DNA of 32,745 nt from assembly GCA_905339165.1 (NCBI GenBank), contig CAJPFH010000026.1, positions 95,471 through 128,215 on the forward strand, read 5' to 3'. Positions 1,638-6,873 of this stretch are shown one piece after another. The notes beneath the pieces are model-generated. The model worked only from the letters and a program-made list of their open reading frames with translations. It was not told the DNA's origin and did not search any database. This DNA comes from Flavobacteriales bacterium (GTDB taxonomy: Bacteria > Bacteroidota > Bacteroidia > Flavobacteriales_E > Vicingaceae). Position 1 is the first letter of the stretch, and every line of letters starts with the position of its first letter. Both the position numbers and the translations under genes were made by a program.

Positions 1638-4600
1638 CTGATAAAAACAACTAATATATTTCTTTTATTCTTATTGCCTATATTCATTGTAGGGCAAGAT
1701 ATGCGTTTTACTTCCGTAGAAGGTACGCAAAGTGTAATCAACACTATGTTGGAAGATAATATGGGATATATTTGGGCCGGAACCCAAGATGGCTTATACC
1801 GATACGATGGATATGAGTTTAAAACATTTAAGCGAATACCGAATGATACCAATTCTTTATCCGATAATTTTATTTGGTGTTTACACCAGTCAAATAATGG
1901 ACTCATATGGGTGGGTACAAATGGAGGAGGTTTAAATTATTATAATCCTATAACCAATAAGTTTTTTCGTTTTGCCTCTAAATCAGATAACGATGTGCTG
2001 ACTAGCGGAATCATAAAGTGCATTACCGAAGATAAGAGTGGTAATTTATATCTAGGAACAGAAAGTGGATTATATATATATAATCATACATCAAAAAAAA
2101 CAGAACATTATACAGAAGGCAGTAATGGCTTAAAAAACAACAGAGTTTTTAGTGTTTTAATAGATATAGAAAACAACGTGTGGGTAGGTACATTCGGAGG
2201 AGGCTTACATCTTTTCCAAAAAGAAACCAAAAAGTTTATACAATATTTAGATGTGCTGCCTTCCGGAAATCTTTTAAAAGAAGAGTCCGTTTTTATTCGC
2301 TCACTGTTTCAAGATAAATTTGGTAATTTATGGGTAGGCACTGGAGGTGCCGGTTTACAGCAGTTTAATATTAAATCGCGTAAATTCAATGAATTCGTAG
2401 ATCCGGGAAGCGGAAAAGCCGTTGGGATTTATCATATTAACCAAAGTGAGGACGATAGGTTATGGATAGCCTCTATGGACGGACTATTTATTTACGATTT
2501 TGCAACCAAAGAATTTACCCATTACTACCACGAAGAAGATAATCCTTATTCTTTATCCAATAACAGAATCCGTTTTGTTTTAATAGGTAAAAATAATATT
2601 AACTGGATTGGTACAGATGGAATGGGAATTAACGTATATAAAAAACTTAGCAACCAATTTAAGCACTATACTAAAAATAACAGAGACTCATTACCCTTGG
2701 TTGGCAATGAAGTAATGGCATTTTGCGAAGATTCAGAAGAAAATATTTGGATAGCAACACTTGATGGAATAAGCGTTTGCGATAAAAACAAAAAGGTAAT
2801 AAAAAATTACAGACTCAATGAAAATAAAATACACGACCGTATTTTAAGCCTACATGTAGATAGAGAAGGATTGATATGGATAGGTTCATGGGGAGGAGGA
2901 ATAAACTTTTATAACCCTGAAACCGAAGAATTCTCTAAACCCTTCAATACAGAAAACCCAATAAATAATACAAGTATTATGGGGAATACCATATTAGATA
3001 TAGAAGAAGACAATTATAATAACATTTGGATAGCAACTCTAGACGGATTAAGTGTTTACAACAAGAACGAGCAAAAGTTTATAAATTACACTACGCTAGA
3101 TGGATTAACATCAAACTCTATAAATTGTATATATTATGATAGCTTAAAAAACACACTTTGGATAGGAACCAACAATGGGGTAAATATCTTCGATATTCAC
3201 AAAAGAGTGGTTACCGAAAAAATTCAATCTAAAGGTAAAGAGGGAGAACTGAGTAATAACACAATTTACTCGATTAATAAAGATTCCAAGGGTTTTTTCT
3301 GGATAGCATCAGGAAATGGATTAAATAAATACGACACACAGTCTAAATCTGTCGTTTCATTTTATGAAAAAGATGGAATGTCAAGCGATATGATATTTTC
3401 TGTTATAGAGGATAATGAGGATAATTTGTGGCTTACATCTGGAAACGGCTTAATTAAGTTTTCTCCTCGAAACCTTGGTAAAGATGAAAATCTCTTTAAA
3501 AACTATTTACCCGTAGATGGGATACAAGACAAGGAGTTTAACCAAGGGGCATACTATAAATGTAATGATGGGGAAATTCTAATTGGAGGGGTGAATGGGT
3601 ACAATGCTTTTTACCCTTTACAAATTAAAACCAATACCAATCCACCCAAAGTATATCTTACCTCGTTTAAAATATTTGAAAAAGAAGTAGCATTAGATAC
3701 AAACATTGCCTTTAAAAAACACCTCGAACTCAGTTATCAGGATAAGTTCTTTTCTTTTGAGTTTGTTGCACTCGATTATTTATTTCCTTCCAAAAATTTA
3801 TATAGCTATAAATTAGAAGGATTAGATGACGAATGGTCACCTCCGTCTAACAGAAGGTTTGTGAGTTACAGTAATTTACCCGGAGGAAATTACGTGTTCA
3901 GAGTGAGAGCATGCAATAACGATGGGTTTTGGAATAACGAAGGAACAGCAATTTATATTAAAATAATTCCACCGTTTTGGAAAACCAATCTGTTTTATGC
4001 CACCTGCATTTTAATCCTTATACTAAGTGTAGTAGTATATAACCGTCTTAGAACACAAAAAATTAAAAAAGAGAAAAAAATACTGGAACAAAAAGTAAAG
4101 GAGCGAACCCGAGAACTAGCAGAAAAAAACAGAGATATACTGAGCAGCATACAGTATGCCAAAAGAATTCAGGAAGCCATTTTACCCCCTTTAGAACAGA
4201 TTTATCAACATTTTCCTAAATCTTTTATACTCTATAAACCTAAAGATATAGTAAGCGGAGATTTTTACTGGTTTGCAGAGAAGAGTGGTAAAAAAATTAT
4301 TGCCGCAGTTGATTGTACAGGACATGGAGTGCCCGGGGCTTTTATGAGTATGATTGGGCATAATATACTTAACCAGATTGTAATAGAAAATGCAGTAATC
4401 GATGCCGCAGAAATACTTAATTTGTTGAATAAGGCAATTATAACATCTCTTAAACAAGAAGGCGGTAACAAACAAGAAACAAGAGACGGAATGGACGTGG
4501 CTCTTTGCGTAATAGATACCTTAGACGGAAAGGTGCAGTTTTCCGGAGCTTACAGGCCACTTTATATTCTCAGAAAAAATAAACTCGAAAAAATTGAGGG

Positions 4601-4892
4601 AAATAAATTTCCTATTGGTGGACTTAAAACGGTAGAGGATAAAACATTCTCATCGGTTACAGTGAAACTGAACGAAGGAGAAACAATTTACATGTTTTCG
4701 GATGGCTATGCCGACCAGTTTGGAGGTGCAGAAGGTAAAAAATTCATGGTAAAGCGATTTAGAGATGTTTTGCTAGAAATTTCAGATTTAAGCATGAAAG
4801 GGCAACAACGCAAATTAGATGAGCTTTTTAATAAATGGAAAGGGAATTATGAACAGGTGGATGATATTTTAATAATTGGCATAAAATTTTAA
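1638..4892 (+). CDS. Propeller/Y_Y_Y receptor with SpoIIE-type PP2C phosphatase output (SiaA-like)
   Basis: Transmembrane sensor phosphatase, about 1084 aa. An N-terminal signal sequence (IKTTNIFLLFLLPIFIVGQ) is followed by roughly 13 two-component-regulator propeller repeats of the type 'lWiGT..GGlnvy' (to about residue 660), a Y_Y_Y domain (about 712-775, YSYKLEGLDDEWSP), one membrane helix (about 785-804), a coiled coil with KVKERTRELAEKNRDI, and a cytoplasmic SpoIIE/PP2C domain. Phosphatase metal motifs are intact: GDFYWF (Asp875), VDCTGHGVPGAFM (Asp892), DGMDVA, and FSDGYADQFGG (Asp1022). It should dephosphorylate a phosphoprotein in response to a periplasmic ligand; the SiaC-type protein downstream is the obvious candidate. 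The start is odd: there is no ATG upstream of the signal sequence, and the first in-frame ATG (1701) would remove it. I placed the start at CTG 1638; ATT 1635, ATA 1641 or TTG 1674 are alternatives. Confidence 0.87.
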   Translation: MIKTTNIFLLFLLPIFIVGQDMRFTSVEGTQSVINTMLEDNMGYIWAGTQDGLYRYDGYEFKTFKRIPNDTNSLSDNFIWCLHQSNNGLIWVGTNGGGLNYYNPITNKFFRFASKSDNDVLTSGIIKCITEDKSGNLYLGTESGLYIYNHTSKKTEHYTEGSNGLKNNRVFSVLIDIENNVWVGTFGGGLHLFQKETKKFIQYLDVLPSGNLLKEESVFIRSLFQDKFGNLWVGTGGAGLQQFNIKSRKFNEFVDPGSGKAVGIYHINQSEDDRLWIASMDGLFIYDFATKEFTHYYHEEDNPYSLSNNRIRFVLIGKNNINWIGTDGMGINVYKKLSNQFKHYTKNNRDSLPLVGNEVMAFCEDSEENIWIATLDGISVCDKNKKVIKNYRLNENKIHDRILSLHVDREGLIWIGSWGGGINFYNPETEEFSKPFNTENPINNTSIMGNTILDIEEDNYNNIWIATLDGLSVYNKNEQKFINYTTLDGLTSNSINCIYYDSLKNTLWIGTNNGVNIFDIHKRVVTEKIQSKGKEGELSNNTIYSINKDSKGFFWIASGNGLNKYDTQSKSVVSFYEKDGMSSDMIFSVIEDNEDNLWLTSGNGLIKFSPRNLGKDENLFKNYLPVDGIQDKEFNQGAYYKCNDGEILIGGVNGYNAFYPLQIKTNTNPPKVYLTSFKIFEKEVALDTNIAFKKHLELSYQDKFFSFEFVALDYLFPSKNLYSYKLEGLDDEWSPPSNRRFVSYSNLPGGNYVFRVRACNNDGFWNNEGTAIYIKIIPPFWKTNLFYATCILILILSVVVYNRLRTQKIKKEKKILEQKVKERTRELAEKNRDILSSIQYAKRIQEAILPPLEQIYQHFPKSFILYKPKDIVSGDFYWFAEKSGKKIIAAVDCTGHGVPGAFMSMIGHNILNQIVIENAVIDAAEILNLLNKAIITSLKQEGGNKQETRDGMDVALCVIDTLDGKVQFSGAYRPLYILRKNKLEKIEGNKFPIGGLKTVEDKTFSSVTVKLNEGETIYMFSDGYADQFGGAEGKKFMVKRFRDVLLEISDLSMKGQQRKLDELFNKWKGNYEQVDDILIIGIKF

Positions 4893-4909
4893 AAAAAATA
4901 CTACATTTG
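4876..4909 (+). promoter_or_regulatory. Candidate Bacteroidota promoter for the 4933 lipoprotein gene
   Basis: TACATTTG at 4902-4909 fits the Bacteroidota -7 consensus TAnnTTTG and ends 23 nt before the ATG. A TTG at 4876-4878 lies 23 nt upstream, slightly farther than the usual ~19-21 nt for a -33 element, and falls inside the end of the phosphatase gene. It suggests the lipoprotein can be transcribed separately from the phosphatase. Confidence 0.45.
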
Positions 4910-4932
4910 TTTTCGTATAAAAAATTAACCTT

Positions 4933-5754
4933 ATGAAAAAACTTATTTACTTATCCGTTTTGGTTTTAGTTTCAACTACAATATGCATCACTTCATGTAA
5001 AAAAGCTGAAGTAGATACCGAAACACAAACAGCGGTAGATAACAGTATTGCTGATAATATGTACTCTCAGGTTTTTCCGAGTACTCACAGAATTGTAATA
5101 GCAGATAATGGTGTTAAACCAGGTTCCGTTAACCGTATTGCCGGTACAGATACTTTAACATCTTGTGCTGTAATATCTGATGTTTCAACATTCGGAACAT
5201 TTCCTTTTACCTTTACCATTGACTATGGTGCAGGTTGTACCGATCCTCACGATGCCCGATTCAGAAAAGGGAAATTAAAAATCTCTCTCGATAATTATTG
5301 GAATCAAGTGGGATCAACTTTAACTATTACCTTTGATGAGTTTTATGACAGTAACATTAAGTTAAAAGGGAAAATAGTAGTAAAACACGATGCTCTTGGA
5401 CAATACACAGTATCCGTAGTAGATGGTATTTGTGAAACCGAAAAATGGAATATAAAATATGCATCTTCTCATACCTTTAAGTGGTTACAAGGTTTTGATA
5501 CAGAAGCAGACGTAACAGACGATATTGTTGAAGTATCAGGAAATTCAAATGGCGTAAATAGAAAAGACTTAGCCTTTACATCAAAAATTACATCTCCTCT
5601 AATAAAAGCAATGAACTGCAAATGGGTTCAAAAAGGAAAAATTGAACTAACTCCCGAAGGAAAATCTGCAAGAACATTAGATTTTGGCGATGGAAAATGC
5701 GACAACAAAGCAAAAATTACCGTAAACGGAAATACCTACGATTTCGAAATGTAA
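4933..5754 (+). CDS. Putative lipoprotein of unknown function
   Basis: A 273-aa protein with a lipoprotein signal: MKKLIYLSVL, hydrophobic stretch, then a lipobox ITSC with Cys22 followed by KK. The mature part is beta-rich and has paired cysteines (TSCAV, GAGCTD, GICETE, MNCKW, GKCDN). It ends with a conserved-looking tail, LDFGDGKCDNKAKITVNG, that I associate with uncharacterised Bacteroidota lipoproteins; I cannot assign a function. It sits 40 nt after the phosphatase gene and 68 nt before the SiaB-type kinase, with its own candidate promoter. Its position makes a periplasmic partner of the propeller receptor conceivable, but nothing in the sequence proves it. Confidence 0.75.
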   Translation: MKKLIYLSVLVLVSTTICITSCKKAEVDTETQTAVDNSIADNMYSQVFPSTHRIVIADNGVKPGSVNRIAGTDTLTSCAVISDVSTFGTFPFTFTIDYGAGCTDPHDARFRKGKLKISLDNYWNQVGSTLTITFDEFYDSNIKLKGKIVVKHDALGQYTVSVVDGICETEKWNIKYASSHTFKWLQGFDTEADVTDDIVEVSGNSNGVNRKDLAFTSKITSPLIKAMNCKWVQKGKIELTPEGKSARTLDFGDGKCDNKAKITVNGNTYDFEM

Positions 5755-5772
5755 TTTTTTTTCGATAAAAAG

Positions 5773-5802
5773 TTGCATAATAAAGACAAATTAATACCTT
5801 TG
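5773..5802 (+). promoter_or_regulatory. Bacteroidota-type promoter for the siaB-siaC pair
   Basis: TTG at 5773-5775 and TACCTTTG at 5795-5802 are separated by 19 nt, a good match to the Bacteroidota sigma consensus (-33 TTG, -7 TAnnTTTG). The -7 element ends 20 nt before the kinase ATG. This is the best-formed promoter in the window. It implies the kinase/phosphoprotein pair is expressed independently of the phosphatase. Confidence 0.65.
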
Positions 5803-5822
5803 GACGGTAGAGTAGATCTTAA

Positions 5823-6392
5823 ATGATAAGAAACAACTTAATGGATTTGGATATTTTTGACTTTTACGACAAAATGGAAAAAAACAATATCATGCTCTCT
5901 TTTAAAGGTGATATTACTTCCGAGTTGTTAACCTCCATTCTTCAAATTATGGAATCCAAAATGGACACCATGGAAGAATCTCCTAAAATAAAGAAAAAGG
6001 TATATAATATTTTAGTTGAATGTTTACAAAATCTTTATCATCACATTGATGAAAATCCCATTGCATCTGCCAACGGAGAAAAAGACAAAACAGCCATTTT
6101 CATGATAGTGAAGGAAGGAGATAAGTATTCTATCATTACTGGAAATTACATGTATAACGACAGTGTTTCCTTGATGAAAGGACGTTTAGAAAAAATAAAT
6201 GCAATGAGTAAAGATGAACTGAAAGAATATTATAAAGAAGTATTAAATAATGGCGAGATGTCTGAAAAAGGCGGGGGAGGTCTAGGAATGATTGATATAG
6301 CTAGAAAATCAGGAAAGCCTTTAGAATTTCAATTTCATCCGGTAGATTCAAAACATTCTTTTTTTAGTTTAAACATAAATATAGCTCAGTAA
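5823..6392 (+). CDS. siaB: SiaB-family protein kinase (DUF6272)
   Basis: A 189-aa cytoplasmic protein with a GHKL/HATPase-like pattern: an N-box-like helix VYNILVECLQNLYHH (60-74, with Glu66 and Asn70) and a glycine-rich ATP-lid segment GGGGLGMIDIARKSG (about 150-164). It matches the SiaB family as I know it: small anti-sigma-kinase-like proteins that phosphorylate SiaC. Length and the GGLGMIDIA motif fit well. The ATG at 5823 is taken; an internal ATG at 5841 is possible. It is followed 32 nt later by a SiaC homologue, so the two are almost certainly cotranscribed. The upstream SpoIIE-type phosphatase would be the opposing activity. The symbol reflects family membership; function is inferred from Pseudomonas. 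Confidence 0.85.
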   Translation: MIRNNLMDLDIFDFYDKMEKNNIMLSFKGDITSELLTSILQIMESKMDTMEESPKIKKKVYNILVECLQNLYHHIDENPIASANGEKDKTAIFMIVKEGDKYSIITGNYMYNDSVSLMKGRLEKINAMSKDELKEYYKEVLNNGEMSEKGGGGLGMIDIARKSGKPLEFQFHPVDSKHSFFSLNINIAQ

Positions 6393-6424
6393 TTTCGGTA
6401 TAACTCATAGATAGGAAATAAATT

Positions 6425-6808
6425 ATGGAACACTTAAACATTGAAGGAACACCCAAAACACCAACAATCAAATTTGATGTAGTTAAAGGTGAGTTGTTAA
6501 TTAGAGGAAGGTCTATCCCTGAAAACTCAATTGAATTTTATAAGCCTTTAGTAGATATGCTTGAGGCATATACCTCTAAGCCATTAAGTAACACGAAGGT
6601 TGATGTACAATTAGAATATTTCAATACGAGTTCTTCTAAGTGTATTTTAGACATTTTTAAAAGATTAGAGGTGTTAAATTCAAACGGAAGTAATGTGATA
6701 ATAAATTGGCATTACGAGGAAGATGATGAGGATATGCTTGAGGCAGGAGAGGATTATCAGGCAATTATCAGTGTTCCCTTTAAAATGATTCAAATCAATG
6801 AGGAATAA
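6425..6808 (+). CDS. siaC: SiaC-family regulatory phosphoprotein (DUF1987)
   Basis: A 127-aa protein matching DUF1987/SiaC: N-terminal EGTPKTPTIKFD, the RGRSIPENSIEFYKPL segment, and the signature YFNTSSSKCILDIF. By hand count the NTSS threonine is Thr68, the same residue number I recall as the phosphorylated Thr of Pseudomonas aeruginosa SiaC. The fold resembles an anti-sigma-factor antagonist (STAS-like), consistent with partner switching. The kinase gene lies directly upstream and the gene ends at a strong bidirectional terminator. In Pseudomonas unphosphorylated SiaC binds and stimulates the diguanylate cyclase SiaD; no GGDEF gene is present here, so the target is unknown. Confidence 0.87.
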   Translation: MEHLNIEGTPKTPTIKFDVVKGELLIRGRSIPENSIEFYKPLVDMLEAYTSKPLSNTKVDVQLEYFNTSSSKCILDIFKRLEVLNSNGSNVIINWHYEEDDEDMLEAGEDYQAIISVPFKMIQINEE

Positions 6809-6814
6809 TTCTTC

Positions 6815-6873
6815 AAATAGAAACTTAATAAAAAAAGCCCTTTAAAAGGGCTTTTTTTATTAAGTTTCTATTT
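6815..6873. terminator. Long palindromic bidirectional terminator
   Basis: A perfect inverted repeat with 29-nt arms (6815-6843 and 6845-6873) around a single central A. The core is AAAAAAAGCCCTTT / AAAGGGCTTTTTTT, so either strand yields a hairpin followed by a U-run. It serves converging siaC (+) and the metallo-beta-lactamase gene (-). The right arm overlaps the last codons and stop of the minus-strand gene. Confidence 0.9.

Follow-up and report, generated by a model that had tools for sequence, protein, structure and literature searches.

A probable SiaA/B/C-type phosphorylation switch with a predicted envelope sensor, probably one input of a wider phosphatase network, in a Flavobacteriales genome

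The window analysed here is a 32,745-nucleotide stretch (positions 95,471 to 128,215) of contig CAJPFH010000026.1 (C26) from a Flavobacteriales bacterium (GCA_905339165.1, G000; 3.16 Mb, 100% complete), whose nearest named relative in our scan was a Flavobacteriales metagenome-assembled genome (L037). Four genes on its + strand, encoding a receptor phosphatase, a lipoprotein, SiaB and SiaC and followed by a terminator-like hairpin, probably form a SiaA/B/C-type switch with an envelope sensor, which would be one input of a network and whose output, other than a cyclase, would most likely be a TerB-ABC-2 transporter encoded on contig C28. The original prediction for this DNA had named, all on the same strand, a phosphatase of propeller/Y_Y_Y/transmembrane/SpoIIE layout, a kinase of SiaB type and a SiaC-type protein with Thr68. 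Domain searches and an AlphaFold model confirmed these three genes, but a conserved lipoprotein gene between the phosphatase gene and siaB had been overlooked. In window coordinates, the features are as follows.

1638..4892, + strand: receptor phosphatase, SiaA-like (Pfam/NCBIfam, AlphaFold, Foldseek, phmmer)
4876..4909, + strand: Bacteroidota-type promoter match, TTG - N23 - TACATTTG, 5′ of the lipoprotein gene and overlapping the 3′ end of the phosphatase gene
4933..5754, + strand: conserved lipoprotein, SCKK lipobox, all-beta (alignment, AlphaFold)
5773..5802, + strand: Bacteroidota-type promoter match, TTG - N19 - TACCTTTG, 5′ of siaB
5823..6392, + strand: SiaB-family protein kinase (NF038262; crystal 6kko match)
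6425..6808, + strand: SiaC regulatory phosphoprotein, predicted phosphosite Thr68 (PF09345; 6kko/6kkp/7e6g matches)
6821..6867, no strand assigned: bidirectional terminator-like hairpin after siaC

Pfam and NCBIfam searches placed 11 Reg_prop repeats, a Y_Y_Y domain (residues 701–764) and a SpoIIE domain (873–1071) in the phosphatase, giving a layout of signal peptide, periplasmic part with two Reg_prop propellers and Y_Y_Y, one transmembrane helix, signalling helix and SpoIIE/PP2C domain. In the AlphaFold model (mean predicted local distance difference test score, pLDDT, 82), the transmembrane helix started at about residue 772 and helices continued to residue 836. The gene starts with a non-ATG codon. 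The program-called TTG at 1674 is too short a start, as it truncates the signal peptide, and the reading frame is open 5′ of it; a start at CTG 1638 or ATT 1635 yields LIKTTNIFLLFLLPIFIVGQD. Which of the two is used is uncertain; CTG 1638 was the start given in the original prediction. When the model was searched with Foldseek, its periplasmic half matched the heparin sensor BT4663 (4a2m; E = 1.9e-59, TM-score 0.83 on the target) and its cytoplasmic half matched the PP2C domain of SiaA (6k4e; TM-score 0.88 on the target). SiaA was also the sole sequence match of the PP2C half in the PDB (phmmer, E = 2e-37). The SiaA equivalog model NF038263 scored 206 bits, below its curated cut-off of 700, and matched the C-terminal part only. 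Among 24 homologues, the stretches GDFYW, DCTGHG, SDGYADQ and DD, which form the PP2C metal and active site, were invariant or nearly so. From the SiaA match and these conserved columns, the protein is predicted to be a membrane-bound SiaA-type PP2C phosphatase with intact metal-binding residues. The claim that a propeller like that of glycan sensors is mounted on the phosphatase of a SiaA/B/C-type switch was supported; the outer half resembles BT4663. A periplasmic double propeller with Y_Y_Y and a transmembrane helix is likewise found in the Bacteroides hybrid two-component systems (BT4663, BT3049 and BT4673), whose output consists of histidine kinase, receiver and AraC domain. Here, by contrast, no histidine kinase, receiver or DNA-binding output follows the propeller, and the output domain is a SpoIIE-type PP2C phosphatase.

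The kinase matched the SiaB model NF038262 with 175.6 bits (cut-off, 85) and the SiaB chain of the SiaB–SiaC crystal 6kko (E = 1e-14); it carries Glu66 and Asn70 in VECLQN and a GGGGLGM ATP loop. SiaC matched PF09345 with 145 bits (cut-off, 24.5) and the structures 6kko, 6kkp and 7e6g (E = 5e-20). Its residue 68 is a conserved Thr in YFNTSSSK and is predicted to be phosphorylatable at the start of helix 2. A SiaB-family kinase gene adjoined siaC here, and siaB lay directly 5′ of siaC in 79 of 80 related siaC loci, the remaining locus being interrupted by a contig end. The Pseudomonas aeruginosa SiaABCD system shares the SpoIIE/PP2C phosphatase, on which the PP2C half described above superposes, the SiaB kinase, the SiaC Thr68 in NTSS and the position of siaB directly 5′ of siaC (PMC7647112; PMC8457831). 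It differs in its sensor, as the input part of SiaA contains a HAMP domain in place of the double propeller and Y_Y_Y, while the conserved lipoprotein, the lack of a SiaD/GGDEF protein and the many phosphatases per genome are peculiar to the present system. The logic of a PP2C phosphatase, a kinase and a STAS-like phosphoprotein is also that of the RsbU/RsbW/RsbV and SpoIIE/SpoIIAB/SpoIIAA partner switches, SiaC being STAS-like by structure (PMC8457831). SiaB and SiaC, however, are families of their own, and no sigma factor was shown as the output here, where no systematic search for a sigma partner was made.

Variants of the two proteins were encountered in the survey. A SiaC paralogue of the window's genome on contig C107 (L119:9832-10254), located directly 3′ of a LytS/LytTR-like two-component pair, has NIASSK for NTSSSK and could be fixed in the unphosphorylated state because it lacks Thr68. 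A second set of genes on contig C6 (86559-88582; L120:7653-11116) comprises a SpoIIE gene convergent to siaC and a gene for a SiaB–SiaB fusion, and such fusion genes recur in further genomes of the class. The loci L187 (3689-9320), L173 and L192 contain operons of the order phosphatase, siaB, siaC, siaB, siaC, coiled-coil, coiled-coil, and the first SiaB of each is without the Gln-Asn normally found in the putative ATP-binding helix, so that it may be degenerate.

Linkage of the phosphatase gene to siaBC was examined against background rates. Among the 59 loci with enough upstream DNA, 27 had a SpoIIE gene within five genes upstream of siaC, compared with 2 of 299 background genes (the binomial probability of at least 26 such loci is about 4e-23). 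Another set comprised 113 loci of class genomes and counted siaC paralogues; here, SpoIIE was no more than four genes away in 34, where about 7% was expected. The linkage held with different flanking genes and recurred with other phosphatase architectures: L071 has a different propeller (28% identity), and other sizes occur elsewhere. Chance linkage was therefore rejected by the background rates, and linkage beyond chance, on which the original prediction depended, was established.

The lipoprotein is an all-beta protein with an SCKK lipobox, modelled by AlphaFold with a pLDDT of 84. A homologue was found directly 5′ of siaB in 36 of the 80 loci, the usual order being phosphatase, lipoprotein, siaB, siaC. 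Of the 59 loci whose upstream DNA extended for 5 kb or more, 25 contained lipoprotein and phosphatase genes together, 2 the lipoprotein gene only, 2 the phosphatase gene only and 30 neither. As its presence follows that of the phosphatase gene and not that of siaBC, the lipoprotein is probably part of the sensor. An exclusive partnership with siaBC was rejected: the family is common in the class (93 of 119 genomes, SiaC-negative ones included), and the two further copies in the window's genome sit among unrelated genes. Foldseek gave no significant match for the fold, and the best hits of a second look (Z = 8.8) were unrelated barrels. Some homologues have CKKEE, which is near the surface-export signal C-X-K-(D/E)2 (PMC5080379); the CKKAE of the window copy fits less well.

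The Bacteroidota-type promoter has the consensus TTG ... TAnnTTTG. Of 34 loci, 26 had TAnnTTTG 5′ of the lipoprotein gene, as against a mean of 3.6 after shuffling; 5′ of siaB, it was present in 58 of 75 (mean of 9.8 after shuffling), and the full motif in 46 (shuffled, 1.0). The motif was weak 5′ of siaC (13 of 79 loci; 6.4 expected), and the gap between siaB and siaC had a median of 12.5 nucleotides. By these motif counts, siaBC forms a unit that has a predicted promoter to itself, so the four genes are better described as a cluster than as one simple operon.

The distribution of the system was surveyed in 119 genomes of the class Bacteroidia. For SpoIIE, no more than about 24 candidates per genome were scored, and above that number the count of candidates entered the rank statistics, those at the family level included; the medians and the cut at four or more are unaffected by this procedure. 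SiaC and SiaB were found in an identical set of 71 genomes. The median number of SpoIIE genes was 14 in SiaC-positive genomes, SiaC-negative ones had 0–3 each, and all 63 genomes with at least four contained SiaC. Because related genomes do not count as independent observations, contrasts at and within the family level are the better guide: the 30 all-positive families averaged at least 3.8 SpoIIE genes and the 23 all-negative families 2.3 or fewer. The number of SpoIIE genes rose with that of SiaC (rho = 0.64). The window's genome has 27 SpoIIE, 5 SiaC and 2 SiaB genes, one of the last being the fusion gene beside the second SiaC and second phosphatase. The single dedicated pathway of the original prediction was not supported by these numbers, which, like the separate siaBC promoter, point to a many-to-few network; a pathway of one receptor and one switch is less likely than a hub and in itself unlikely. 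Receptor phosphatases may have undergone an extreme expansion in G094, a 5.5-Mb genome with 8 SiaC and 7 SiaB genes and 89 SpoIIE candidates, 24 of which were scored.

GGDEF was sought in the same survey. No match was obtained in the window's genome, in which control profiles were matched, and GGDEF occurred in only 1 of the 119 genomes. The output is therefore not a diguanylate cyclase of SiaD type, as the genome has none, and the predicted non-GGDEF output was supported to this extent. Given the co-distribution of SiaB and SiaC, the SpoIIE numbers and the single genome with GGDEF, SiaC seems to be a hub that receives input from many phosphatases and has an output other than GGDEF. In this organism the best candidate output is most likely the TerB-ABC-2 transporter on C28. 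This protein of about 1030 amino acids, usually encoded with companions of 141–144 and about 300 amino acids, was the most frequent non-Sia neighbour of siaC apart from a methyltransferase and a ZIP-like gene of the ancestral gene order. It was found in 64 of 71 SiaC-positive and 2 of 48 SiaC-negative genomes; in three mixed families, it was found in 7 of 7 and 0 of 4, respectively. TerB-ABC genes adjoined primary and duplicated siaC genes alike, duplicate copies lying next to siaC paralogues and in the same orientation.

In the mechanism we propose, the double propeller and Y_Y_Y, probably together with the lipoprotein, would sense a polymer, either extracellular or in the envelope; the transmembrane and signalling helices would relay the signal and so determine how active the cytoplasmic PP2C domain is. 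By homology, SiaB would phosphorylate Thr68 of SiaC, and the phosphate would be removed by the PP2C domain, chemistry shown only in Pseudomonas (PMC7647112; PMC8457831). Unphosphorylated SiaC would then bind and switch its output protein, and many SpoIIE receptors would act on few SiaC proteins. Several observations weigh against this reading. About half of the siaBC loci lack a phosphatase gene within five genes upstream. Nearly all SpoIIE domains of the window's genome are about equally SiaA-like (112–172 bits; 25 of 26 scored domains similar), so the linked phosphatase need not be the only or the main one. The transporter gene on C28 lies away from siaC, and its adjacency to siaC elsewhere is partly one inherited gene order, which makes co-occurrence the stronger argument for TerB-ABC. 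Finally, neither the TerB-ABC protein nor the rest of the window's genome yielded a stalk motif like that of SiaD. The first two of these observations, together with the gene numbers, the correlation and the siaBC promoter, also favour SiaB and SiaC being a shared hub, with the linked receptor one of 27 that would dephosphorylate SiaC or its paralogues and its position a matter of inherited gene order. We regard this as quite possible, though short of probable, because the siaBC-linked phosphatases rank first (C6) and third (window) of 26 in similarity to SiaA, and the linkage is kept with different flanks and other architectures.

At 8 loci of another group of genomes, siaC is followed directly by genes for small tail-anchored coiled-coil proteins that have a transmembrane helix. 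Their helix resembles the stalk of SiaD, in which Ser82, Asp83 and Gln86 contact SiaC (PMC8457831). With a profile built from Bacteroidota stalks only, the best matches outside its own family were the stalks of proteobacterial SiaD (E = 5e-7 to 2e-5, against 0.02 for the next, unrelated protein), and the reverse profile likewise recovered the Bacteroidota stalks, both on a small database; NCBIfam SiaD matched residues 23–77 (E = 0.005). Strong matches in the class were confined to SiaC-positive genomes, and G037, G075 and G105, of one family, lack the TerB-ABC transporter and have stalk proteins. Such proteins may be the output in other lineages. That Bacteroidia SiaC generally acts through them and not through the transporter is unlikely, since convincing scores were limited to 8 genomes, the window's not among them, and the Bacteroidota-only profile failed to recover SiaD from the PDB set. 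Azospirillum has such a SiaC-binding stalk on SiaD as well as on a histidine kinase encoded between siaC and siaD (L257:5414-6349, Azospirillum lipoferum plasmid), so SiaC may control a kinase besides a cyclase there.

It is improbable that the propeller protein is instead a PorZ-like sensor linked to the envelope or secretion, gated by either the lipoprotein or a polymer on the surface, with a phosphatase target other than SiaC. The co-occurrence of the lipoprotein with the phosphatase agrees with it, as does a weak similarity to PorZ, but the BT4663 fold match was far better, the PP2C domain resembles SiaA and the gene neighbours are siaBC. Although SiaD is the only known SiaC target (PMC8457831; PMC7647112), control of cyclic di-GMP (c-di-GMP) by a diverged diguanylate cyclase encoded at another locus, as in classical SiaABCD, is hardly credible and was rejected on the GGDEF counts and the missing stalk.

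On the scale of the class, we tentatively suggest that Bacteroidia SiaC is a hub: tens of envelope sensor phosphatases would feed into few SiaC proteins, whose output would be TerB-ABC-2 transporters, joined in certain lineages by membrane proteins with a stalk, rather than c-di-GMP. In many Bacteroidia genomes, SpoIIE-type receptors without an assigned pathway number in the tens; as their number tracks SiaB/SiaC and not GGDEF, they acquire a shared candidate substrate and an output that can be tested. If this is correct, a mode of signalling by Ser/Thr phosphorylation would run parallel to two-component systems, and SiaC would not be confined to c-di-GMP control. We found no paper on SiaC/DUF1987 in Bacteroidota, other mentions of SiaC in the phylum referring to an unrelated sialidase.

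Directly upstream of the phosphatase gene, positions 16-1581 of the window encode a CotH-kinase-domain protein with a type IX secretion system sorting domain, a gene that adjoins the phosphatase elsewhere only in the near-identical relative L037.

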